DNA of 64,000 bases from Streptomonospora salina. GTDB taxonomy: Bacteria > Actinomycetota > Actinomycetes > Streptosporangiales > Streptosporangiaceae. Under the pieces are notes generated by a model. The model worked only from the letters and a program-made list of their open reading frames with translations. It ran no database searches and was not told the origin of the DNA. The position numbers and the translations under genes were made by a program. Shown piece by piece: positions 41,389 to 51,390 of the stretch. The first letter of the stretch is position 1. Each line of letters begins with the position of its first letter. The stretch lies in NCBI RefSeq assembly GCF_014204715.1, contig NZ_JACHLY010000001.1, positions 2,201,001 to 2,265,000 on the forward strand, in the 5' to 3' direction.

Positions 41389-42219
41389 TCAGGTGCAGCC
41401 CTCGAACTGGGGGACGCTGGTGTTGATGTCCAGGCCGCTGTCGCCGAACCATTTGCGCAGCAGCCACGCCGCCGTGCCGTCCTGGTACATCCGGGTGATG
41501 GCCCGGTTGACCGCCTCGCAGCCGGCGACGTCCTCCTTGGCGACGCCGACCCCGTACTTCTCGTTCGTGAAGGGCGCGTTGACGAGGTTGAACGACGACG
41601 GCGCGGTTTCCAGGTAGCCGGCCAGGATCAGGTCGTCGGTGGAGACCGCGTCGACCTCGCCCTCGGCGAGCAGGTCGATGCAGTCGCTGTAGGCGGGGCG
41701 CTCGACCCGCTCGGCGTCGATGCCGCGCTCGCGGATGATGCGGTTGGCGGAATTGGACCCGGCTCCCTGGCACAGCACTTTGCCCTCCAGGTCGGCCGCA
41801 TCCGCCACGGACGTGTCGCCGGCCTGCACCAGGATGTCCTGGTGGGCGACGTAATAGGGGCCGCCGAACGCGACGCGGGTCTTGCGCAGCTGAGTAATAG
41901 AATAAGTCGCCAGCACCAGGTCGACCTCGCCGCTGACCAGCACCTGTTCGCGCTCGTGCGACGTCACTCCGACGAACTCCACGTCGGCGCGTTCCACACC
42001 CAGCTCGGCCGCGATGTAGTGGGCCACGTCCACATCGAACCCCTCGAACGTGCCGTCCTCGGCGCGCAGCGACAACCCGGGCTGGTCGGGCTTGACGCCG
42101 ATGCGCAGCATCTCGGCCCCGGCCACCGAGGCGGCCCCGCCCACCGCGTCGGTGCACGATCCCGCCGCGGTCAGCACCAGCGCGGCGGCGACCGCGGTAA
42201 GCAGCCGGCGCAGTCTCAT
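41389..42219 (-). CDS. glnH: GlnH-like amino-acid-binding lipoprotein
   Basis: A 276-residue periplasmic-binding-type protein (SBP_bac_3). The lipobox LTAAGSC lies at ~17-22 after a basic/hydrophobic signal. The mature part has RIGVKPDQPGLSL, the ligand-loop FEGFDVDVAHYIAAELG, DLVLATYSITQLRKTRVAFG and NEKYGVGVAKED, as in glutamate/aspartate binders. GGGAGG precedes the ATG. There are no ABC membrane or ATPase genes nearby; instead it follows glnX, 107 bp apart. In mycobacteria the GlnH lipoprotein binds acidic amino acids and signals through GlnX to PknG rather than importing them; the same arrangement suggests the same role here. Confidence 0.88.
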   Translation of the reverse strand: MRLRRLLTAVAAALVLTAAGSCTDAVGGAASVAGAEMLRIGVKPDQPGLSLRAEDGTFEGFDVDVAHYIAAELGVERADVEFVGVTSHEREQVLVSGEVDLVLATYSITQLRKTRVAFGGPYYVAHQDILVQAGDTSVADAADLEGKVLCQGAGSNSANRIIRERGIDAERVERPAYSDCIDLLAEGEVDAVSTDDLILAGYLETAPSSFNLVNAPFTNEKYGVGVAKEDVAGCEAVNRAITRMYQDGTAAWLLRKWFGDSGLDINTSVPQFEGCT

Positions 42220-42326
42220 CGGCTCTCGCCTCCCGTTCCGGTCCTCTCCGGTCCCCGTCCGCCTCCGGTCCGCCTCGGTTCCCCGTCCCGCACCGTCCGT
42301 GCCGCCGTGCGCCGCCGGCCGCCCCG

Positions 42327-43823
42327 TCAGCGGTACTCGGCCAGCCGGGGCCGCACGCCCAGCACCACCAGAGCCGCGAACGCCAGGCATGCGCCCGGCA
42401 GGATCGCGTCCCAGCCGCGCAGCCCGGCGCGGGCGTCGGCGACGGCGGTGTCGAAGGTGTTGATGTGCAGCGACGTCAGCTGCACGAGCGACCGCTCATA
42501 GCGGTCGAAACGATCCGCGACGGAGTCCCCGCCGCCCATGCGGGCGTCGATGGCCGCGGCGGCGCCCTCCTCCTCGGCCAGGTCGCGCATCCGCTGGTCG
42601 GCGTCCAGGTAGGCGCTGTAGTCGCGCAGGGTGCGCCGCTGGACCTGTTCGCGGCCTTCGACGCCCCCGGCCCGGACCTCCTCTCCGAGCAGACCGATCA
42701 ACTGCCCGGGGTAGTCGGTGTGGTCGGGCACGGCCTCGCCGACCTCGGCGGTGTAGCCCTCCAAGTCGCCGGGCGGGGCGTCGCCGTCGGGCACCAGGAA
42801 CACCACCATCTGCGCGTCCTCCAGGAAGTTCTGCTCGTAGATGTCGGCGCGTCCGGGGTTCATCAGCCACCGGCTCTGGTCGGCGTTCATCCCGGTGCTG
42901 ATCGCGCGTGCGCGCGAGAGCGCCAGCACCGAGTCGAGCCCGTCGGCTTTGGCGGAGCGCAGCAGGGCGGCCTGCTGCTCCAGCATCCCGACCGCCCCCA
43001 GCCCCAGGACGAGCACACCGATGGTGGCCGCGGCCAGCGGGATGTTGTAGCGGCGGCGGAAGCGGGTGCGCAGGAAGCGCTGGAGGGCGAGGAGCGCCGC
43101 GACCAGTGCCGTGGCCGCCCCCGCGACCAGCGCCATGCGCACCGACGCGGCCGAGCTGTTCTCCTGGTAGGTGCTGCGCACGGTGGCGCCGCTGTCGAGG
43201 GTGAGGTTGTAGGCCTTGGGCAGCAGGTCGCGGCGCATCAGCTCGCCGGCCCGCTGGTAGAGCCGCACCACCTCCTCGGGCTGCGATCCGGCGGGCCGTC
43301 CGGCCTCGTCGCTGAGCAGCCGCGCCTGGGACACGAGGTTCTCGTAGCGGGTCATGTCCTCCATGACGGCGCGGACGTTCTCCTCGTCGGTCGTGTCGCC
43401 CTCGGCCAGCTGGGCGGCGTGCAGGAGCGCGTCGGTGGCGTCGGAGCGGCGCTGCTCGTAGCGGTCCACGGCGGCTTCGCGGCCGTCGCCCAGGGAGCGG
43501 TCGGATCCCATCAGCAGCACGTTGGCCATCTGGGCGTCCATGTCGCTGAGGGCGAAGTACAGGTCGGCGGTGGCCACCACCTTGGGTCCTTCGTCGCGGC
43601 CGATGACGTCCAGACCGTCGCGGCTGCGCGCGATCGCCGATCCGGTGACGGCGAACAGCACGCCGATGAGCACCAGGCACAGCACAGTGAGCAGCCACAC
43701 GCGGCCGCGGGTGCCGGGACGTCCCACCCACGCCGGCAGGCGCGTGCGGGGGCGCGCCCGGTCCGCGGCGCGCATAGCCAGGCGGTCGGCGATCTCGGGA
43801 GCCTCGGTGCTGCCTTTCACCAC
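42327..43823 (-). CDS. glnX: GlnX-like transmembrane signalling protein
   Basis: A 498-residue membrane protein with four predicted helices (~44-64 VWLLTVLCLVLIGVLFAV; ~232-253; ~268-287; ~473-491) and two large extracytoplasmic helical loops, like methyl-accepting-type sensors without signalling domain. The loops carry DMDAQMANVLLMGSD and INTFDTAVADARAGLRGWD. This topology and its position between an FHA protein and GlnH match mycobacterial GlnX (Rv0412c), which relays GlnH ligand binding to PknG. The GTG at 43823 (or the adjacent GTG at 43820) lies 6 bases after the FHA stop codon, with its Shine-Dalgarno inside that gene, so translation is coupled. Confidence 0.82.
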   Translation of the reverse strand: MVKGSTEAPEIADRLAMRAADRARPRTRLPAWVGRPGTRGRVWLLTVLCLVLIGVLFAVTGSAIARSRDGLDVIGRDEGPKVVATADLYFALSDMDAQMANVLLMGSDRSLGDGREAAVDRYEQRRSDATDALLHAAQLAEGDTTDEENVRAVMEDMTRYENLVSQARLLSDEAGRPAGSQPEEVVRLYQRAGELMRRDLLPKAYNLTLDSGATVRSTYQENSSAASVRMALVAGAATALVAALLALQRFLRTRFRRRYNIPLAAATIGVLVLGLGAVGMLEQQAALLRSAKADGLDSVLALSRARAISTGMNADQSRWLMNPGRADIYEQNFLEDAQMVVFLVPDGDAPPGDLEGYTAEVGEAVPDHTDYPGQLIGLLGEEVRAGGVEGREQVQRRTLRDYSAYLDADQRMRDLAEEEGAAAAIDARMGGGDSVADRFDRYERSLVQLTSLHINTFDTAVADARAGLRGWDAILPGACLAFAALVVLGVRPRLAEYR

Positions 43824-43829
43824 GCGGCC

Positions 43830-44558
43830 TCAGCCCCGCTGGCGGTGCAGGGCGATGACGGTCCAGGCGCCGACATAGATGCGGTCGGCCTCATTCAGCG
43901 GCACCTCCGTGTTGGCGGGGACCGCATCGGCGGTCCCGTTGAGGGTGGTCCCGTTCGTCGAGCCTTCGTCGATCAGCGCCCATCCCCCGCCGGGGCGGGC
44001 GATGAGTACGGCGTGCGTGTGGGAGACGGCGGGGTCCTCGGGCGGCCCGGCCAGATCGATCTCGGGGTGGATGCCCGTCCTGAGGCTGCGCCGCCCGATG
44101 CGGATGCGGGCGCGGTTCAGCGGCATGCGGCGCTGCGGCGCGTGCGCGGGGAACTCGACGGATGCGGGGTCGAGCACGCTGCGGTCGGCCATGGCACGGT
44201 AGTAGGCGGGGTCGGCGCAGACGATCGCCCACCAGGTGGGGTGCGCGGGCTCCGGTACAGCGCCGGGCCGCGGCGCGTCGGGGGCCGTGCCGAGCACGGT
44301 GGTGCCGTCGTGGTCGGCGGAGCGGGGGGCGGGCGGCGGTGTCAGCGGCAGCGGCGACGCCTCGGTGCGGTCGGCGGCGGCGAAGTCGTGGCCGCACTCC
44401 TCGCAGAAGCGGCCGTCGCGCACGGCGGCGCAGTCGGGGCAGGTCTCCTCGGGCGCGCCGGCGCCCGGAACGGTCGGCGGCGGCTGGGCGGTCGGCAGTC
44501 CGCACACGGCGCAGCGGGCGCGGGCGGACGAGGGGTGTCCGGCCGGACACGTCGGCAT
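43830..44558 (-). CDS. zinc-ribbon FHA-domain protein
   Basis: A 242-residue cytosolic protein. Two N-terminal zinc-ribbon knuckle sets (CPAGHPSSARARCAVCG, ~4-20; CPDCAAVRDGRFCEECGHDF, ~39-58) are followed by a Pro/Asp-rich linker and a C-terminal FHA domain (~148-240) with IRIGRRS (phosphothreonine-binding Arg), VSHTHAVL (Ser-His) and STNGTTLNG. FHA domains bind phosphothreonine; in mycobacteria and corynebacteria the PknG substrate GarA/OdhI is an FHA protein. This one is larger and differently built, so it may be a scaffold rather than a TCA-cycle inhibitor. GAAGAAGGGG precedes the ATG; it starts 19 bases after the VWA-like gene. Confidence 0.88.
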   Translation of the reverse strand: MPTCPAGHPSSARARCAVCGLPTAQPPPTVPGAGAPEETCPDCAAVRDGRFCEECGHDFAAADRTEASPLPLTPPPAPRSADHDGTTVLGTAPDAPRPGAVPEPAHPTWWAIVCADPAYYRAMADRSVLDPASVEFPAHAPQRRMPLNRARIRIGRRSLRTGIHPEIDLAGPPEDPAVSHTHAVLIARPGGGWALIDEGSTNGTTLNGTADAVPANTEVPLNEADRIYVGAWTVIALHRQRG

Positions 44559-44577
44559 GATCGGCCCCTTCTTCCTC

Positions 44578-45348
44578 TCACACGGCCCCCGTTTCGCGGT
44601 CTCCCGCGCGTGTGCGCTCGGTCGTGATCCGGTTCTGCGGCGCCGCGCCGGCGGTCGCATCGGCCGGCGGCCGCAGCCGCACCGTGCCCGGCGCCGTGTC
44701 GGCTCCCGCGCCGGCGGCGCCGGTCGACTCCTCGGCGGCGGTACCGGTGCGGGCGTGTGCGGGCGCCACCGCGCGCCCCAGTCGCACGGTGGCGGTGTCG
44801 GTCTCCGGGGATGTGTGCAGCGCGTACGGCGCTGCGCGGGTCGGCCCGTCGCCGGCGGCGCCGGCAGCCGGTGCGGGGACGAGGGCCGCGTCGCCCTCGC
44901 GGGTCCACTCGGCGAGGACGTCGCCGCAGGCCGCGGTATGCGGGTCGGAACCTGCGGCCAGCACCCGCAGGCGCGCCGCCCGCATCCGGCGTCCGGGTTT
45001 CGCGGGCGGCACCCGCAGGTGCAGGTGGTAGGTGCGGGTCTCGTCGGCCCAGGCACCGGCGGGGTAGGCGCCGGTGCGCGGGTCGCACGGGCCGCGCCGG
45101 CCGGTGATGTCGCAGACGCGGGGCGCGATCTGGACCAGGGCCGCCACTCGGGTGCCGCGGGGCGTCCACAGCCGCAACGCGACGTCGGCGGCGGTTGCGG
45201 GCCCGTCGGACGGGGCGGGCGGTGTGCGGGCGATGCGCACGACCGCGTGCACGTCGCCGCCGCCCGGCGGGATCCGCCGGGGCCCGTGCACCCGCACGGC
45301 GAACTCCGGCCGCGGGGCACCCGGTGCCGGTCCCGGCTGCGCGGTCAT
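44578..45348 (-). CDS. VWA-family protein lacking its VWA domain
   Basis: A 256-residue protein that aligns by eye with both ends of the VWA proteins found in actinobacterial kinase/phosphatase/FHA clusters. The leader FAVRVHGPRRIPPGGGDVHA matches their F-x-V-E-V...LP-x-GG-REVNA start. VALRLWTPRGTRVAALVQIA, PRTGAYPAGAWADETRTYHL and TATVRLGRAVAPAH match their C-terminal half. The ~170-residue VWA domain with its MIDAS (D-x-S-x-S) that should lie between residues ~40 and ~60 is absent, as is a second segment near ~170. The frame is intact. The ATG overlaps the PP2C stop in ATGA, so it is co-translated with the phosphatase. Likely an in-frame deletion; metal-dependent binding should be lost. Confidence 0.75.
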   Translation of the reverse strand: MTAQPGPAPGAPRPEFAVRVHGPRRIPPGGGDVHAVVRIARTPPAPSDGPATAADVALRLWTPRGTRVAALVQIAPRVCDITGRRGPCDPRTGAYPAGAWADETRTYHLHLRVPPAKPGRRMRAARLRVLAAGSDPHTAACGDVLAEWTREGDAALVPAPAAGAAGDGPTRAAPYALHTSPETDTATVRLGRAVAPAHARTGTAAEESTGAAGAGADTAPGTVRLRPPADATAGAAPQNRITTERTRAGDRETGAV

Positions 45349-46370
45349 CGGGCCTCCTTGCCGGTCGCGGGTGCGGGCACGTCGATCACGACGGCCGTGG
45401 AGTTGTCGTGCCCGCCTCGCTCCAGTGCGTAGCGGACGCACGCGCGCGCCGCGGCGAGCGGGTCCGCTCCGGCGCCGCGCACGAGCCCGGCCAGGCCGGC
45501 GGGCTCGGGCAGGTGGTTCCACACGCCGTCGCTGCACAGCAGCAGCCTGCCCGCGCCGCCCGGGTCGAATGCGGCGACCCGCCCGGCGGCGCCGCCGTAG
45601 TCGGCGCCCAGCCACGCCGTCAGGGCGTGGGCCTGCGGCGCGGCCGCCGCCTCCTGCGGGTCGAGGACGTTCATCGCGACCATGGCTTCGCTCCAGGAGT
45701 CGTCGCGGGTGAGCAGGGCCGAGGGTGCGGCGGGGCGGCCGTGGCCGATCCAGTACGCGCGGCTGTCGCCGACCCAGGCCACGGCCAGCGGCCCTCCCGC
45801 TGCGGGCACCGCCGCACCCACGAAGGTGCAGGCGGGGGCCCGGACGGGGGATTCGGCGAGTACGGCGACGGCGCCGGCCGCCCGGCGCAGGGCCGCGCTG
45901 AGGGATTCCGCGGTGCCCTGTCCGCTCTCCAGGGACGTGGCGAGCACCGCCGCTCCGGATTCGGCCGCGGCCGCAGCGGCGGAGTCGGGCCGCGGCGAGG
46001 AGGACACCCCGTCGCAGACGACGGCGGCGGTCACCGGGCCGGCGGGCAGGGCTCCCGCGCCTGGGGCGTCCGCGCTGCGCACAGCCATCGCGTCCGCGTT
46101 GCGTTCGTGGCGCAGGCCGCGGTCGCTCACCCCGGCGGCCGCGGTCAGGCGCAGCTCGGTGTGGTCGCCGGGGCGGCGGCGCAGCCCGCATCCGGTGCAG
46201 GCGCCCTCGGTCAGGCGGGCGCCGCAGCGGGCGCAGGGGGCCGGTGCCTCCACGGCGGCGCCGGCCACGCTCTGCGCCGCGCCGCCGGTACGGCGCAGAG
46301 GGTGGCCGCAGTGCTCGCAGAAGGCGTCCTCGGCGGCGGCCGGTTCACCGCATACCGGGCAGGTCGGCAC
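45345..46370 (-). CDS. zinc-ribbon PP2C-family Ser/Thr phosphatase
   Basis: A 341-residue phosphatase. The N-terminus carries two zinc-ribbon halves (CPVCGEPAAAEDAFCEHCGH, ~4-23; CARCGARLTEGACTGCG, ~47-63). The PP2C domain (~75-335) shows the metal ligands RHERNADAMAV (D), VVCDGVSSS (DG), WVGDSRAYWI, LLLCSDGVWNHL (D) and GHDNSTAVVIDV (DN). GGGGAGG stands upstream of the GTG at 46370. It follows pknG by 203 bp and overlaps the VWA-like gene by 4 bases. It is the natural antagonist of the kinase, removing phosphates placed by PknG (inference from context). Confidence 0.9.
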   Translation of the reverse strand: MPTCPVCGEPAAAEDAFCEHCGHPLRRTGGAAQSVAGAAVEAPAPCARCGARLTEGACTGCGLRRRPGDHTELRLTAAAGVSDRGLRHERNADAMAVRSADAPGAGALPAGPVTAAVVCDGVSSSPRPDSAAAAAAESGAAVLATSLESGQGTAESLSAALRRAAGAVAVLAESPVRAPACTFVGAAVPAAGGPLAVAWVGDSRAYWIGHGRPAAPSALLTRDDSWSEAMVAMNVLDPQEAAAAPQAHALTAWLGADYGGAAGRVAAFDPGGAGRLLLCSDGVWNHLPEPAGLAGLVRGAGADPLAAARACVRYALERGGHDNSTAVVIDVPAPATGKEAR

Positions 46371-46573
46371 GATGCAGGCCTCCCCTCTGCCGCGTGCGCG
46401 CGGTCGTGCGCGGCGCGCGGCCGCGTGCGGCGGCCGGCGGCGCCATCGGACCGCGCCGGCCGCGCGGCGGTGCTCCCCCGGTCCGCGGCCCGTCGGGCCG
46501 CGCCTCCCCGTCGGTGACATACCCGCACCGGGCGGTAGGGCTAACGCGCCGGAAGGGAGTTGTGGACGGCCGG

Positions 46574-49024
46574 TCACAGCAGCGTCCGCGGCCGGACGGC
46601 GTTGGCCCGGTCGACGAGCTCGCGGCGCCGCCTGCCGTCGGTGGTGGTGCGGGCCCGGTCGCGGTAGCTGCGCTCCAGGCCCGCGCGCAGCCCCGCCTCG
46701 GTCATCGGGGACGCCAGCAGCCGGGTTTCGGCGGTTTCGGGTCCGAAACCGGCCAGTACCCAGTCGAGTGCGCCGCGCAGCACCCGGGCGTTGAGCCGGT
46801 CGCGGGCTTCGCCGCGCAGCCCCAGGCGGCTCAGCCGCGCCACGGCGTCCAGGAACACCGACTCCGACACCGCGCCGGGGTCCCGGTCCACCACCAGCAC
46901 GCTCACCGCCGCCATCTGCGCAGCGATGTAGACGCTGGAGAGTTCGGGGACCATGTCCAACACCTCGACGGCCCCGGCGGGGTCGCCGCGGGCCAGGCGG
47001 ATACGGGCCAGGCCGAACCCGGCGCTGACGTAGGCGCGGTCGGTCAGCCACACGGTGCGGTAGAGCCGTTCGGCGTCGGCGTGGTCGCCTGCCAGCTCGC
47101 AGGCGGCGGCCAGGCCGAGCTTGGGCGCGGCCTCGCCCGGCAGGTGGTCGAACAGTTCGTCGAACCGTTCGCGGGCGCCGGCGCCGTCCCCGACGTCCAG
47201 CGCTATGACCGCCCAGTACCAGAACGGCCGCCAGTCGCCGGGCGCGCAGGCGCCGAACTCCTGCAGCCGGTGGGCGGCCTCCTCGCGGCGTCCCGACCCG
47301 ATCAGGGCGCGTGCCAGCATCAGCTGCGTCTCGGGGGTGGGGTCGGTGTCGCCTTCCAGGGTGGCGGCCAAGTCCTCGGCGGGCAGTGCCGCGAGGCCTT
47401 TGAGTTGCGCGGAGGCCTCGTCGGCGGGGTCGACCAGCGGGAACGGCAGGGCGGCCGCGGCGCGTTCGGCGTCGGAGGGGCCCAGCAGCCGGTCGGTCTC
47501 GTCGATGACCCGCACGAGGTTGCCCGAGGTGAACAGAGGGTGCTCGGCGCCGAACAGCGCCGAGGAGGCGGGGTGCGGGCGGCCGTGCATGTCGGAGAGG
47601 ACTTCGCGCAGCACACCGGTGAGCTGCTCGGCCATTTCGGCGGCGTCGCAGAAGCGCAGCGGGGGTTCGGGCTGCAGCGCCCGGCGCAGGAGCCGGTCGA
47701 AGGAGGGGTAGCGCCGCAGCACCGGAACGGACCCGGAGTCGGGCAGGTCGTGTTCGTAGGTGCGGGCGAAGTCGAACCGGAAGCTGAGCACCGCCAGGCA
47801 GCGCGCCACCGAGTACAGGTCGGCGCTGACCGAAGGGCCGCTCTCGCGCAGCTCGCGTTCGGGTACGCGGTAGCCGACGGTGGTGTAGACGGGGGTGACC
47901 AGATCGTCGACGGGCCGCACGGCACCCAGGTCGATGATCTTGATCTGCTCTTCGCTCTGGATGACGTTGTCGGGTTTGAAGTCGCAGTAGAGCAGACCCT
48001 TGCTGTGCAGGTGGCCCAGGGCGCGCAGCGCCTCCAGCCCGTAGGCGATCACCCGGTCCACCGGCAGCCCGTCGTCGCCGGACGTGCGCGCGCGGTGCTC
48101 CAGAAGCAGGTCGCGCAGCGACTTGCCGCCGACGTACTCCATGACGATGTGGCCGGTGGGCACTCCCGTTCGCGGGTCGGGATGCTGCACGAAGTTGTAG
48201 ATCTTGACGACGTTGGGGTGCTCGACCTCGGCCAGCACACCGCGCTCGGCGGCGGCGGTCTTGTGCGCCTCGGCGTCGCCGACGTTGAGCAGGCCCTTGA
48301 GCACGACCCACCGGTCGTTGACGTTGTGGTCGCGGGCGAGGTAGATCCAGCCGAGACCGCCGTGGGCCAGGCAGCCCAGCACTTCGTACTGGCCGGCGAC
48401 CAGGTCGCCGGGGGCGAGCTTGGGGGTGAAGGAGAACTCGGTGCGGCAGGAGCGGCAGTAGCCCTCGGTGCGGCCGGGACGTCCGTAGAGGGAGCGGCCC
48501 ACGCTTTCGCCGCAGTTGCCGCAGACGCGGTTCTTCTCGGCGACCACCGGGTCGCTGAGGACCGCGCTGGCGGGGTCGCGGTAAGGCACGGGCGGCACCT
48601 GGACCATGCCCAGCCCCAGCAGTCCGCGGGAGGACTGCGCCCCGGGACGGTGCGCGCCGCCGGCGGCGGGGTCGGGGTCGGGCCGGGCCCGCGGCCCCGA
48701 CGTGTCCGGCGCGCCGAAAGCTCCGAAGGGCCCGGACAGGCGGGACTCCCGCAGGCTGGGCGAGGGGCCCGAGGCGGTGGGGCCGCCGCTGCCGGGATCG
48801 GGCGCAGGGCGCCGGCCGTCACCGGCGGTTCCGGGGCCGCCGGCGGGCGGCTGCGCGGAGTGCGGGCCGGATGCGGGGGCGGTGCGCGCGGCGGCGGCGC
48901 CGGTCGTTCCGGAGACCCGCGGCGCGGGGACGACCGTCTCGGAGACGATCGGGGCCATGCCGCACTGGTCGCAGTAGCCGTCGTCGATCGCACCGGTGCA
49001 GTGGCGGTCGGTGCACTCGGTCAT
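46574..49024 (-). CDS. pknG: PknG-like Ser/Thr protein kinase with zinc ribbons and TPR region
   Basis: An 816-residue soluble kinase. The layout is: N-terminal zinc ribbon (C-T-D-R-H-C ... C-D-Q-C-G, ~4-22), a disordered Pro/Gly linker, a rubredoxin-like two-knuckle domain (VCGNCGESV ... YCRSCRTEF, ~165-196), a kinase domain (~208-470) with glycine loop LAHGGLGWIYLARD, catalytic Lys in WVVLKGLL, non-RD catalytic loop LLYCDFKPDNVI (~340) and IIDLGAVRP (DLG in place of DFG), and then a ~340-residue TPR-like helical tail. This order is diagnostic of PknG. CAGGAG precedes the ATG at 49024. It heads the cluster PP2C - VWA-like - FHA - glnX - glnH. Confidence 0.93.
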   Translation of the reverse strand: MTECTDRHCTGAIDDGYCDQCGMAPIVSETVVPAPRVSGTTGAAAARTAPASGPHSAQPPAGGPGTAGDGRRPAPDPGSGGPTASGPSPSLRESRLSGPFGAFGAPDTSGPRARPDPDPAAGGAHRPGAQSSRGLLGLGMVQVPPVPYRDPASAVLSDPVVAEKNRVCGNCGESVGRSLYGRPGRTEGYCRSCRTEFSFTPKLAPGDLVAGQYEVLGCLAHGGLGWIYLARDHNVNDRWVVLKGLLNVGDAEAHKTAAAERGVLAEVEHPNVVKIYNFVQHPDPRTGVPTGHIVMEYVGGKSLRDLLLEHRARTSGDDGLPVDRVIAYGLEALRALGHLHSKGLLYCDFKPDNVIQSEEQIKIIDLGAVRPVDDLVTPVYTTVGYRVPERELRESGPSVSADLYSVARCLAVLSFRFDFARTYEHDLPDSGSVPVLRRYPSFDRLLRRALQPEPPLRFCDAAEMAEQLTGVLREVLSDMHGRPHPASSALFGAEHPLFTSGNLVRVIDETDRLLGPSDAERAAAALPFPLVDPADEASAQLKGLAALPAEDLAATLEGDTDPTPETQLMLARALIGSGRREEAAHRLQEFGACAPGDWRPFWYWAVIALDVGDGAGARERFDELFDHLPGEAAPKLGLAAACELAGDHADAERLYRTVWLTDRAYVSAGFGLARIRLARGDPAGAVEVLDMVPELSSVYIAAQMAAVSVLVVDRDPGAVSESVFLDAVARLSRLGLRGEARDRLNARVLRGALDWVLAGFGPETAETRLLASPMTEAGLRAGLERSYRDRARTTTDGRRRRELVDRANAVRPRTLL

Positions 49025-49242: not shown

Positions 49243-49908
49243 TCAGCCGAGCCGGCCCGGGCGCACCATGCCGGTCTCGTAGGCGATGACGACCAGCTGG
49301 GCCCGATCGCGCGCGCCCAGTTTCGTCAGCACCCGGCTGACGTGGGTCTTGGCGGTAGCGGGGCTCAGTGTCAGGCGGCGGGCCAGTTCCTCATTGGACA
49401 GCCCGGCGGCGACGGCCTCCATGACTTCGCGCTCGCGCTCGGTAAGCGCGTTGAGCCGCGGCGCCGGCGGCGGATCCTTGAGGCGGCCGGCGAACTCGCC
49501 GATGAGGCGCCGGGTGACCGAGGGCGCCAGGAGTGCGTCGCCGCGGGCGACGACGCGCACCCCGTGGATGAGCTCTTCCGGCTCGGTGTCTTTGACCAGG
49601 AATCCGCTGGCGCCGGCTTTGAGGGCACCGTAGACGTAGTCGTCGAGGTCGAAGGTGGTGAGGATGACGACCTTGACGTCGCGCAGCCGCTCGTCGGCGG
49701 CGATGCGGCGGGTGGCCTCCAGCCCGTCGAGGACCGGCATGCGGATGTCCATGAGTACGACGTCGGGGCGCTCGGCGCGGGCGGCGCGCACGGCCTTCTC
49801 GCCGTCCTCGGCTTCGGCGACGACGGCGATGTCGGCTTCGCCGTCAAGCATGGAGCGGAAGCCGGCCCGCACCAGCGTCTGATCGTCGGCGAGCACCACC
49901 CTGGTCAT
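49243..49908 (-). CDS. NarL/LuxR-type response regulator
   Basis: A 221-residue response regulator. Receiver: ADDQTLVRAGF (acidic pocket), VVLMDIRMPVLDG (phospho-Asp ~54), VVILTTFD (Thr ~83), FLVKDTEPEE (Lys ~105). LuxR helix-turn-helix at ~150-210: LTEREREVMEAVAAGLSNEE and ATAKTHVSRVLTKLGA. It follows its histidine kinase gene on the same strand with a 53-bp gap, a normal cognate pair. It is upstream of pknG on the same strand (218 bp apart), so read-through or control of the kinase cluster is possible but unproven. Confidence 0.93.
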   Translation of the reverse strand: MTRVVLADDQTLVRAGFRSMLDGEADIAVVAEAEDGEKAVRAARAERPDVVLMDIRMPVLDGLEATRRIAADERLRDVKVVILTTFDLDDYVYGALKAGASGFLVKDTEPEELIHGVRVVARGDALLAPSVTRRLIGEFAGRLKDPPPAPRLNALTEREREVMEAVAAGLSNEELARRLTLSPATAKTHVSRVLTKLGARDRAQLVVIAYETGMVRPGRLG

Positions 49909-49961
49909 GCGCGCCCCGCTTCCGTCTCCGCCGTCGGCCTGCCGCCGTTTCGCTCTCTTGC

Positions 49962-51227
49962 TTACCAGGCCGGGCGGCAGCCGGGGAAGGCATGGGAGTC
50001 TGTCACCGGGGATCGGGCCGAAGAGGCCCCGCCGGCACCCCCGTCGGACGTGGTGGAGGCCCGTCCCAGCGGGAAGGCGGCGCGCACGGCGAAACCGGGG
50101 CCGCCCTCGCGCGGTCCGGCGGTGCAGGTGCCGCCGACCGCGGCGGCGCGCTCGCGCATCCCCCGCAGGCCGTTGCCCTCGGGAGCGCCGCCCGATGGGG
50201 CCGCGCCGCCGTCGTCGGCCACGGCCACGCGCAGTTCGGCGGCGCCGTAGGCGACCGACACCTCTGCGCTGGAGGCGCCGGAGTGGCGCAGGGCGTTGGT
50301 GAGGGCCTCCTGGACGATGCGGTAGGCGGCCAGGTCCACGGCGGCCGGCAGCGGCGTGGCGCGGCGCTCGGCCTCCAGCCGCACCGGCAGCCCGGCGGCC
50401 GTGGTGCGCTCGGCCAGTTCACCGACACGGGCCAGGGAGGGCGCGGGTGCGGTAGGCGCGCCACCCTCATCGTCGACCTGGCGCAGCACGCCCAGTGTCG
50501 AGCGCAGTTCCCGCAGGGTGTCGCGGCTGGCCTCCTTGATGCGGTCCAGCGCGTCGTAGGCGGCCTCGGAGTCGTCGCGGCGGCGCGCGGCCGCACCGGC
50601 CTGCACGTTGATCAGCGAGATGCTGTGGGCGATCACGTCATGCAGCTCCCGGGCGATGCGCAGGCGCTCCTCGACGGCGCGGCGGCGCGCCTCCTCTTCG
50701 CGGGTGCGCTCGGCCTCGGCGGCGCGCTGCTGGGCCTCGCGTATGTAGGCGCGCTGGCTGCGGGTGACCTCACTGACGAGTAGGACGACCAGGACCCAGG
50801 CGAGCGCCGACAGTGCGCGGGCCGCCTCGAAGTCGAGTATCTCCACGACGGTGGAGAGCGCCAGAACGACGCCGATGCCCGACAGTGCGGCGCTTCGGTT
50901 TCCGGCGGCGCTCAGCCGCACCACCGCGACCACGAGCGCCGCCCAGGCGACCCAGATGTCGGCGGAGGCGGTCATGTAGTAGCCGAGGACGCTGATTCCG
51001 ATCGCCACCGCCGCGGTGTGCGGGAACCACCGGAGCAGGGCCACGCAGGCGGTGCCCGCCAGCAGCACCGCCAATCCGGTTTCGGCACCGCCCTGGCCGA
51101 AGGCCACCAGCAGCTGCAGCGCGCCCACGCCGACGGCGAGCATCGCATCGACCACAGTCTCGGGGATCCGCAGCGGACCGAGCAGCAGGCCTCCGCCGCC
51201 GGGCACCGCCGGCGCCCGGCGGGTCAT
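49962..51227 (-). CDS. sensor histidine kinase, HisKA_3 type
   Basis: A 421-residue membrane histidine kinase. Hydrophobic segments span ~20-155, followed by a charged coiled-coil linker (EAQQRAAEAERTREEEARRR), the phospho-acceptor helix RIARELHDVIAHSISLINVQ (His ~193), and the GHKL ATPase with N-box RIVQEALTNALRHSG (~290) and G-box GNGLRGMRERAAAVGG (~352). GGAGG stands 6 bases before the ATG at 51227. The partner regulator is the next gene. The signal is unknown; the sensor has almost no external domain, so a membrane or internal cue is likely. Confidence 0.92.
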   Translation of the reverse strand: MTRRAPAVPGGGGLLLGPLRIPETVVDAMLAVGVGALQLLVAFGQGGAETGLAVLLAGTACVALLRWFPHTAAVAIGISVLGYYMTASADIWVAWAALVVAVVRLSAAGNRSAALSGIGVVLALSTVVEILDFEAARALSALAWVLVVLLVSEVTRSQRAYIREAQQRAAEAERTREEEARRRAVEERLRIARELHDVIAHSISLINVQAGAAARRRDDSEAAYDALDRIKEASRDTLRELRSTLGVLRQVDDEGGAPTAPAPSLARVGELAERTTAAGLPVRLEAERRATPLPAAVDLAAYRIVQEALTNALRHSGASSAEVSVAYGAAELRVAVADDGGAAPSGGAPEGNGLRGMRERAAAVGGTCTAGPREGGPGFAVRAAFPLGRASTTSDGGAGGASSARSPVTDSHAFPGCRPAW

Positions 51228-51390
51228 CGGGAGCCTCCGGCCTGGGCACCGGTGTCCGGGCATCGCGCTCCTCATCCGTCCGTCGCACAACGGCCGCCCG
51301 GCCGTAGCACCAGGATGGGGGACGAGCGCACGCGCACGCATCCGCCGCCGGATGGAACCGCGCCTGCGCCCCGGGATGGAGAGGGGCGCC

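Follow-up and report, generated by a model that had tools for sequence, protein, structure and literature searches.

Introduction

The protein kinase PknG is known in central metabolism and infection chiefly via its effector GarA/OdhI, and in mycobacteria it is served by a three-gene relay, glnX-glnH-pknG. The archaea possess a nutrient-dependent phospho-switch, ArnA-ArnB, which is described in PMC6509490 and PMC12852372 (PubMed Central, PMC, identifiers are given throughout). Here we describe a row of six genes, pknG, PP2C, "VWA-like", FHA, glnX and glnH, located on the minus strand at positions 41389-49024 of a 64,000-nucleotide stretch of the Streptomonospora salina genome (contig NZ_JACHLY010000001.1, positions 2,201,001 to 2,265,000), referred to below as the window. 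The gene set constitutes a conserved enlargement of the PknG relay, so far undescribed in the literature searched, and the copy in the window is damaged. On balance, we favour the interpretation that the unit is an amino-acid-controlled phospho-switch, in which GlnH-GlnX-PknG would drive, and PP2C would reset, a VWA-FHA protein pair resembling archaeal ArnB-ArnA.

Conservation and gene orders among actinobacteria

PknG_TPR matches above cut-off were found in 75 of the 121 genomes of the window's order, in 141 of 394 genomes of a class sample and in 20 of 296 of a phylum sample. The 181 loci compared consist of 100 regions fetched by place (60 + 20 + 20) which were hand-picked from the match lists, 80 named contigs, being the best 80 of 594, and the window; the named and other sets may contain the same species twice. 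Loci were typed on the basis of profile thresholds and open reading frames, not annotation, and the profiles were seeded with the window proteins, or for VWA with the protein of G087, another genome of the genus, and extended on the first 101 loci. Six loci (L076, L112, L126, L132, L133 and L171) in which the glycine-loop pattern of the kinase was not found were left untyped; of the 175 that were typed, 15 were excluded for short flanks, so that 160 remained.

All six genes occur together on one strand in 97 of the 175 typed loci, and in two orders. The first, pknG-PP2C-VWA-FHA-glnX-glnH, is that of the window and was found at 60 loci carrying the window's family code or, where named, belonging chiefly to Nocardiopsis and Actinomadura. 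The second, glnX-glnH-pknG-PP2C-VWA-FHA, was found at 37 loci, from family codes f5, f10, f81 and f87, Streptomyces, Kitasatospora, one Phytohabitans locus and three of Nocardia. When the 160 loci with full flanks were considered, 75 belonged to the first type, including those short of one member, 38 to the second, 33 carried the three-gene form glnX-glnH-pknG and 14 were of other kinds. The three-gene loci comprise 23 named ones, from Amycolatopsis and other Pseudonocardiaceae, and 10 of codes f6 and f110; f6 presumably contains the mycobacteria, and one f6 PknG matches the structure of tuberculosis PknG (2PZI) with 1404 bits. The possibility that the gene set is special to the window was rejected, since within Actinomycetota it recurs under several family codes and in several named genera, and the synteny check suggested in the original prediction has shown the six-gene order to be conserved well beyond the window's order. 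The types also differ in the kinase itself, a zinc-ribbon pattern at the N-terminus of PknG being present in 56 of 75 loci of the first type and 33 of 38 of the second, and in none of the 33 three-gene loci.

Searches of the open-licence PMC literature, judged by titles, openings of abstracts and selected passages, gave no description of the six-gene set; PMC6069109 does include, in Fig. 2B, a STRING view of the pknG neighbourhood across Actinomycetales. Five divergent loci represent a second pknG accompanied by a VWA gene (L083, L086, L087, L088 and L136), four of them with a GlnX-like gene, and typing yielded no PP2C or FHA profile matches for these five.

A seventh gene, encoding a helical protein of about 400 residues, accompanies most of the larger loci; in the second order it separates glnH from pknG, and in the first it immediately precedes pknG (for example L046:12016-13227 and L188:7394-8629, with about 100 further loci). 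Among loci with full flanks, 62 of 75 of the first type and all 38 of the second carry it (100 of 113 in total), and none of the 33 three-gene loci does. Four copies gave no Pfam family over cut-off. The gene was not found in the other genomes of the window's genus, and its profile had no match in the window between 36001 and 54000. The place that it occupies in most relatives, directly upstream of pknG, is taken in the window by a two-component pair on the same strand (49243..51341) that lies outside the unit: a response regulator (49243-49908, Pfam Response_reg and GerE) and a histidine kinase (49962-51341, HisKA_3 and HATPase_c).

The six genes and their products

The number of genes, their common strand, their order and the junction sizes given in the original prediction are confirmed by the coordinates and gaps, the junctions measuring, in gene order from pknG, 203, -4, 19, 6 and 107 bp. 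The prediction that each gene has a readable role holds, on Pfam and NCBIfam evidence, for the kinase, PP2C, FHA, GlnX and GlnH proteins and fails for the supposed VWA-family protein, to which no Pfam or NCBIfam model matches. All coordinates in this section refer to the minus strand.

The pknG gene (46574..49024) encodes an N-terminal zinc ribbon followed by a rubredoxin-like domain (about 48416-48625), a kinase domain (about 47786-48388) and the PknG TPR domain (46583-47572), the domain order rubredoxin-kinase-TPR being that of PknG proteins, with Pfam scores of 82.5 bits for PknG_rubred, 86.8 for Pkinase and 283.8 for PknG_TPR; residues 135-814 match 2PZI with 518 bits. The PP2C-type Ser/Thr phosphatase (45345..46370) has a GTG start and an N-terminal double zinc ribbon and overlaps the next gene by 4 bp. 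Its Pfam scores are 37.2 bits for PP2C_2 and 27.3 for DZR, and the metal-binding Asp residues of PP2C are conserved in 119-120 of 120 sequences. The third gene (44578..45348) encodes 256 amino acids and is a remnant of an ArnB-like VWA protein. The FHA protein (43830..44558) carries an N-terminal double zinc ribbon (about 44391-44549), a linker and the FHA domain (43869-44105, 40.9 bits in Pfam); the phosphothreonine-binding Gly-Arg, Ser and Asn are kept in 115-119 of 119 sequences and the zinc-ribbon Cys residues in 106-117 of 119.

The membrane protein GlnX (42327..43823) shows, by hydropathy, four hydrophobic segments with two long loops between them. It scores above the cut-off of the NCBIfam GlnX subfamily (NF058618, 272.9 versus 250 bits) and below that of the equivalog "protein kinase G-activating protein" (NF041460, 67.1 versus 780 bits). 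The glnH gene (41389..42219) encodes a lipoprotein-type amino-acid-binding protein which matches SBP_bac_3 of Pfam with 100.8 bits and the solved GlnH structure 6H1U with 102 bits. A scan for terminators and for a limited range of promoter types revealed no promoter-like site and a single terminator-like site on the other strand, outside the unit.

The shortened VWA gene

In relatives the intact VWA protein is about 430-450 residues long. A match of any strength was obtained at 124 loci, and the 113 copies scoring above 500 bits formed the conservation set, in all of which the residues of the metal ion-dependent adhesion site (MIDAS) are invariant. Of the 11 left out, seven are shortened or mere scraps and four are longer (L083, L086, L132 and L136), three of these four lacking the DxSGSM pattern.

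Among the six genomes compared within the genus, three (that of the window, G046 and G074) have had the VWA domain removed in frame. Alignment with intact relatives, with the junction compared in all six genomes, places the site at which they carry the inserted domain of about 180 amino acids at approximately 45181..45222 (minus strand), and in all three genomes the frame, the N-terminal strands and the subsequent beta-sandwich continue past the gap. Erosion appears stepwise, from the intact gene of G087, to G046 without the VWA domain, to G074 and the window, where VWA_3_C has also gone; the Pfam model VWA_3_C is detected in G046 and undetected in the other two. The loss of the VWA domain within the genus may reflect one event, a reading to which the branch in question lends little weight, with support of 35/57. 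The window protein retains the beta-sandwich, and its C-terminal helical part and tail are eroded. AlphaFold2 gives it a block mean predicted local distance difference test score (pLDDT) of at least 87 for residues 11-150 and below 50 for residues 203-256, such that the beta-sandwich is well predicted and the end is predicted to be disordered.

A live VWA protein in third position was rejected on these grounds, and so was a second intact copy elsewhere, none being found in this genome in a search at E up to 0.01. With the domain cut out and no further copy recovered, the unit is incomplete, and the description of the relay as complete in the original prediction had to be abandoned for this genome, where most of the C-terminal helical part is also lost.

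The ratio of nonsynonymous to synonymous changes (dN/dS), obtained from simple Nei-Gojobori counts without a significance test, was highest for the VWA remnant among the six genes in all three pairs formed by the window, G046 and G074, and in the nearest pair it reached 0.73 against 0.21-0.46 for the other genes. This alone is no proof of decay, because in a control pair, G053-G039, glnX reaches 0.72, with the intact VWA gene at 0.48. The remnant remains an open frame, having its own stop in all three genomes and the 4-bp overlap in the window. An independent VWA-less version that retains the helical part occurs in another family, at a locus with a short flank (L131:8363-9019).

The operon FHA protein and GarA

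The original prediction had placed the FHA target within the unit. Writer, eraser, reader and input are indeed gathered in one conserved unit, and a GarA/OdhI-type target with the ETTS motif still lies elsewhere in the genome (G000:C1:205369-205908, locus L093), where an N-terminal zinc ribbon precedes the motif. No ETTS motif was seen by eye in those operon FHA proteins that were inspected, the window FHA protein scores 20 bits against a cut-off of 200 for the OdhI model NF041660, and hhalign aligned the operon FHA protein to GarA over the FHA part only. Identification of the operon protein as GarA was therefore rejected. GarA matches (E up to 1e-40) occur in 119 of the 121 genomes of the order and, because GarA lies elsewhere in this genome and is so widespread in the order, we consider the operon FHA protein an added reader and not a relocated GarA. 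Moreover, 44 of the 46 genomes of the order without PknG above cut-off have GarA, which is therefore not dependent on PknG.

Structural likeness to archaeal ArnA-ArnB

A model of the intact G087 protein (locus L036), with a pLDDT of 91.4, shows the VWA domain inserted between strands of the beta-sandwich, with helices following. For this protein the best match in the PDB was 4FX5 from Catenulispora, with a template modelling (TM) score of 0.89 and 47% identity, followed by two VWA chains of 8S05 of about 380 residues (TM 0.67-0.69 by query length) and then by 5A8J. The entry 8S05 is the ArnA-ArnB complex, and both matched chains are its VWA partner. The ArnB-type architecture, with VWA in a beta-sandwich and a C-terminal helix bundle, is present in the L036 protein and absent from the window protein.

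At the level of sequence, the VWA family profile finds 8S05_A at 1.5e-8, and the FHA family profile finds ArnA, as 8S05_C and 5A8I, at 4.2e-9 and 7.4e-9, spanning both zinc ribbon and FHA domain. The window does encode a partner with an N-terminal zinc ribbon and an FHA domain, which discriminates weakly, given that GarA has both. The VWA-FHA pair is likened to ArnB-ArnA because one gene matches one partner of a known complex and the gene beside it matches the other; each sequence match is weak by itself, and the argument is carried by the fold and by both genes pointing to the same complex. Towards the C-terminal end of the VWA protein, Ser is found in 112 and Thr in 110 of 113 copies at two positions, and these are candidate phosphorylation sites. 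The Catenulispora protein is named as a structural relative in PMC6509490 and PMC12852372, and the word PknG is absent from both papers.

The GlnH pocket

According to PMC6069109, the Asp/Glu pocket of mycobacterial GlnH is formed by Arg147, Lys161, Thr162, Ser164, Arg169, Trp232 and Asp250. Alignment with 6H1U, together with spacing, indicated that the window protein keeps Arg147, Thr162, Ser164, Arg169 and Asp250 and has Ala for Lys161 and Tyr for Trp232. Residues at these two positions vary by lineage. At the Trp232 position, 34 of 37 three-gene loci have Trp, every one of the 73 first-order loci, the window among them, has Tyr, and 26 of 40 second-order loci have Gln. At the Lys161 position, 36 of the 37 three-gene loci have Arg or Lys, and 72 of the 73 first-order loci have Ala. 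For these counts the window reference row was removed from the other subsets, and the 37 three-gene loci include four with short flanks, three of which resemble cut six-gene loci. The lineage-specific residues at both positions predict an altered ligand preference, and Tyr with Ala, as in the window's lineage, would be expected to weaken the preference for Asp/Glu.

Origin of the three-gene form

In the PknG tree the three-gene loci split into two clades, one of f6 and one of Pseudonocardiaceae. The f6 clade, within which two lone pknG loci are nested, has the three six-gene loci of Nocardia as its sister (support 1.0 and 99), and the Pseudonocardiaceae clade adjoins the Phytohabitans locus (support 0.88 and 92). 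A single clade of all three-gene loci was rejected in an approximately unbiased (AU) test (p-AU 0.013), which was based on a quick tree (LG+G4) of 58 of the 175 loci, hand-picked after the first tree and with L115 and L202 assigned manually to the six-gene group. This 58-locus tree requires two changes. Because the two clades sit beside six-gene sisters, we infer that the three-gene mycobacterial form is a reduced one, cut down twice. Two losses are simpler than repeated gains because the order PP2C-VWA-FHA behind pknG is the same on all sides, but the tree, being unrooted, does not by itself separate gain from loss. The "expanded architecture" of the original prediction would then be turned around, with the larger set the older.

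A search at E up to 1e-10 recovered no VWA relative from ten f6 genomes, eight of which gave loci that read as the three-gene set or lone pknG only, or from G722 of code f110. A VWA relative does occur elsewhere in G716, which has a lone pknG locus, and in G618, which has a three-gene locus.

A wider proposal, which we advance tentatively and at somewhat less than even chances, is that the ancestral role of PknG in actinobacteria was to operate an ArnA-ArnB-like (Sec23/24-core) phospho-switch together with the helical seventh protein and a dedicated PP2C reset, and not to act on GarA, the mycobacterial line and the Pseudonocardiaceae each having dropped the effector part. If so, archaeal and bacterial starvation switches share one effector module.

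Proposed mechanism and alternative explanations

From the architecture, and by analogy with the archaeal pair, signal flow through an intact unit may be envisaged as follows. An extracellular amino acid would be bound by GlnH, whose state GlnX would transmit across the membrane to the TPR domain of PknG. The kinase would phosphorylate the VWA protein in its C-terminal helical part and tail, the FHA protein with its zinc ribbon would then grip the phosphorylated VWA protein, and PP2C would reset it, the pair presumably working in the manner of ArnB-ArnA. In the present genome, sensor, kinase, phosphatase and FHA protein remain. With the VWA domain gone, and also most of the end that would be phosphorylated, the branch is probably in decay, or else survives as a beta-sandwich that may still bind its FHA partner by the zinc ribbon.

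Several points weigh against this proposal. The VWA gene is missing or present as scrap, with no match above 100 bits, in nine of the 75 loci with the window's gene order, all nine retaining PP2C and FHA (L041, L045 and L043 still have scraps, of 82, 33 and 24 bits), so that the rest is either able to dispense with VWA or decaying too. Further fold matches of the VWA protein include inter-alpha-inhibitor chains and Sec23/24, and in the sequence comparison the match to 8S05_A is confined to the VWA domain and is outscored by those to a mussel thread protein and an inter-alpha-inhibitor chain. The FHA profile scores 39.9 bits with ArnA, 37.8 with GarA and 41.7 with a plant FHA protein, so ArnA would be favoured solely by the reach of the match over the zinc ribbon, which the GarA of this genome likewise has. 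The conserved tail of the VWA protein may be maintained for structural reasons, because part of it (residues 413-422) is helical in the model. Finally, according to PMC12852372, the majority of proteins that share the ArnB architecture have no part in multi-phosphorylation, and the papers listed or consulted gave no data on phosphorylation, binding or expression for the PP2C-VWA-FHA part.

One alternative is that GarA is the real output, as in mycobacteria and corynebacteria, with the PP2C, VWA and FHA proteins merely tuning PknG. The ETTS-bearing GarA of this genome and the near-universal occurrence of GarA in the order would accord with it, as would the decay of the VWA protein in pairs of genomes where pknG, glnX and glnH are more constrained. 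Nevertheless, GarA persists in nearly all genomes of the order in which PknG is below cut-off, and PP2C-VWA-FHA stands behind pknG in two gene orders over several families; we regard this explanation as improbable, although it merits serious attention. Much less probable still is a TerY-P-like triad of kinase, PP2C and VWA that serves some other purpose, such as defence or stress, and has simply been coupled to GlnX-GlnH. Such triads are known from conflict and tellurite systems, one of them actinobacterial with a zinc ribbon on the kinase (PMC11090510, PMC7159879). However, the ribbon of TerY-P kinases is C-terminal (PMC11090510) and that of the present kinases N-terminal, and the VWA domain is missing in the window. 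PADLOC, in which the presence of a TerY model was unchecked, was silent on the window PP2C and FHA proteins and on the VWA proteins of two intact relatives, and two PknG proteins gave matches inside its kinase models only.

A third alternative concerns this genus alone, namely that the shortened VWA gene is a pseudogene on its way out and that the unit acts as a three-gene relay. It comes close to an even chance without reaching it: the top-ranking dN/dS of the remnant, the stepwise erosion from G087 to the window and the disordered end all speak for it, while the similar ratio of glnX in the control pair, where no domain was lost, the open frame with its overlap and stops, and the VWA-less protein of a separate family at L131 speak against it. 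If the three-gene relay is indeed reduced, there is in streptomycetes and related organisms another, larger branch that has a phosphatase and read-out of its own and is accessible to genetics in harmless laboratory strains; a bacterial amino-acid sensor would also be joined to an effector pair known from the control of archaeal motility.

Comparison with known systems

Among known systems, the GlnX-GlnH-PknG relay with GarA/OdhI of Mycobacterium and Corynebacterium (PMC6069109, PMC9769921, PMC8546545) is related in sensor, membrane relay and kinase. The present unit differs from it in the additional PP2C, (former) VWA and FHA genes and in the N-terminal zinc ribbon of PknG, and the window GlnH has Tyr and Ala where the mycobacterial protein has Trp232 and Lys161. 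TerY-P triads (PMC11090510) share VWA, PP2C and a Ser/Thr kinase with a zinc ribbon, whereas here the ribbon lies at the opposite end of the kinase, which is of the PknG TPR type, and an FHA partner and an amino-acid sensor are present. Caci_2163 of Catenulispora acidiphila (PDB 4FX5), which shares 47% identity and a TM score of 0.89 with the L036 protein, was compared as a structure alone. ArnA-ArnB (PMC6509490, PMC12852372) has in common a zinc-ribbon-FHA protein and its VWA/beta-sandwich/helix-bundle partner, a kinase, a phosphatase and, as predicted for the present unit, nutrient control; it is, however, archaeal and employs the kinases ArnC and ArnD and the phosphatase PP2A, whereas the unit described here is bacterial, with a PP2C and a GlnH-GlnX input, and has lost its VWA domain in this genome.

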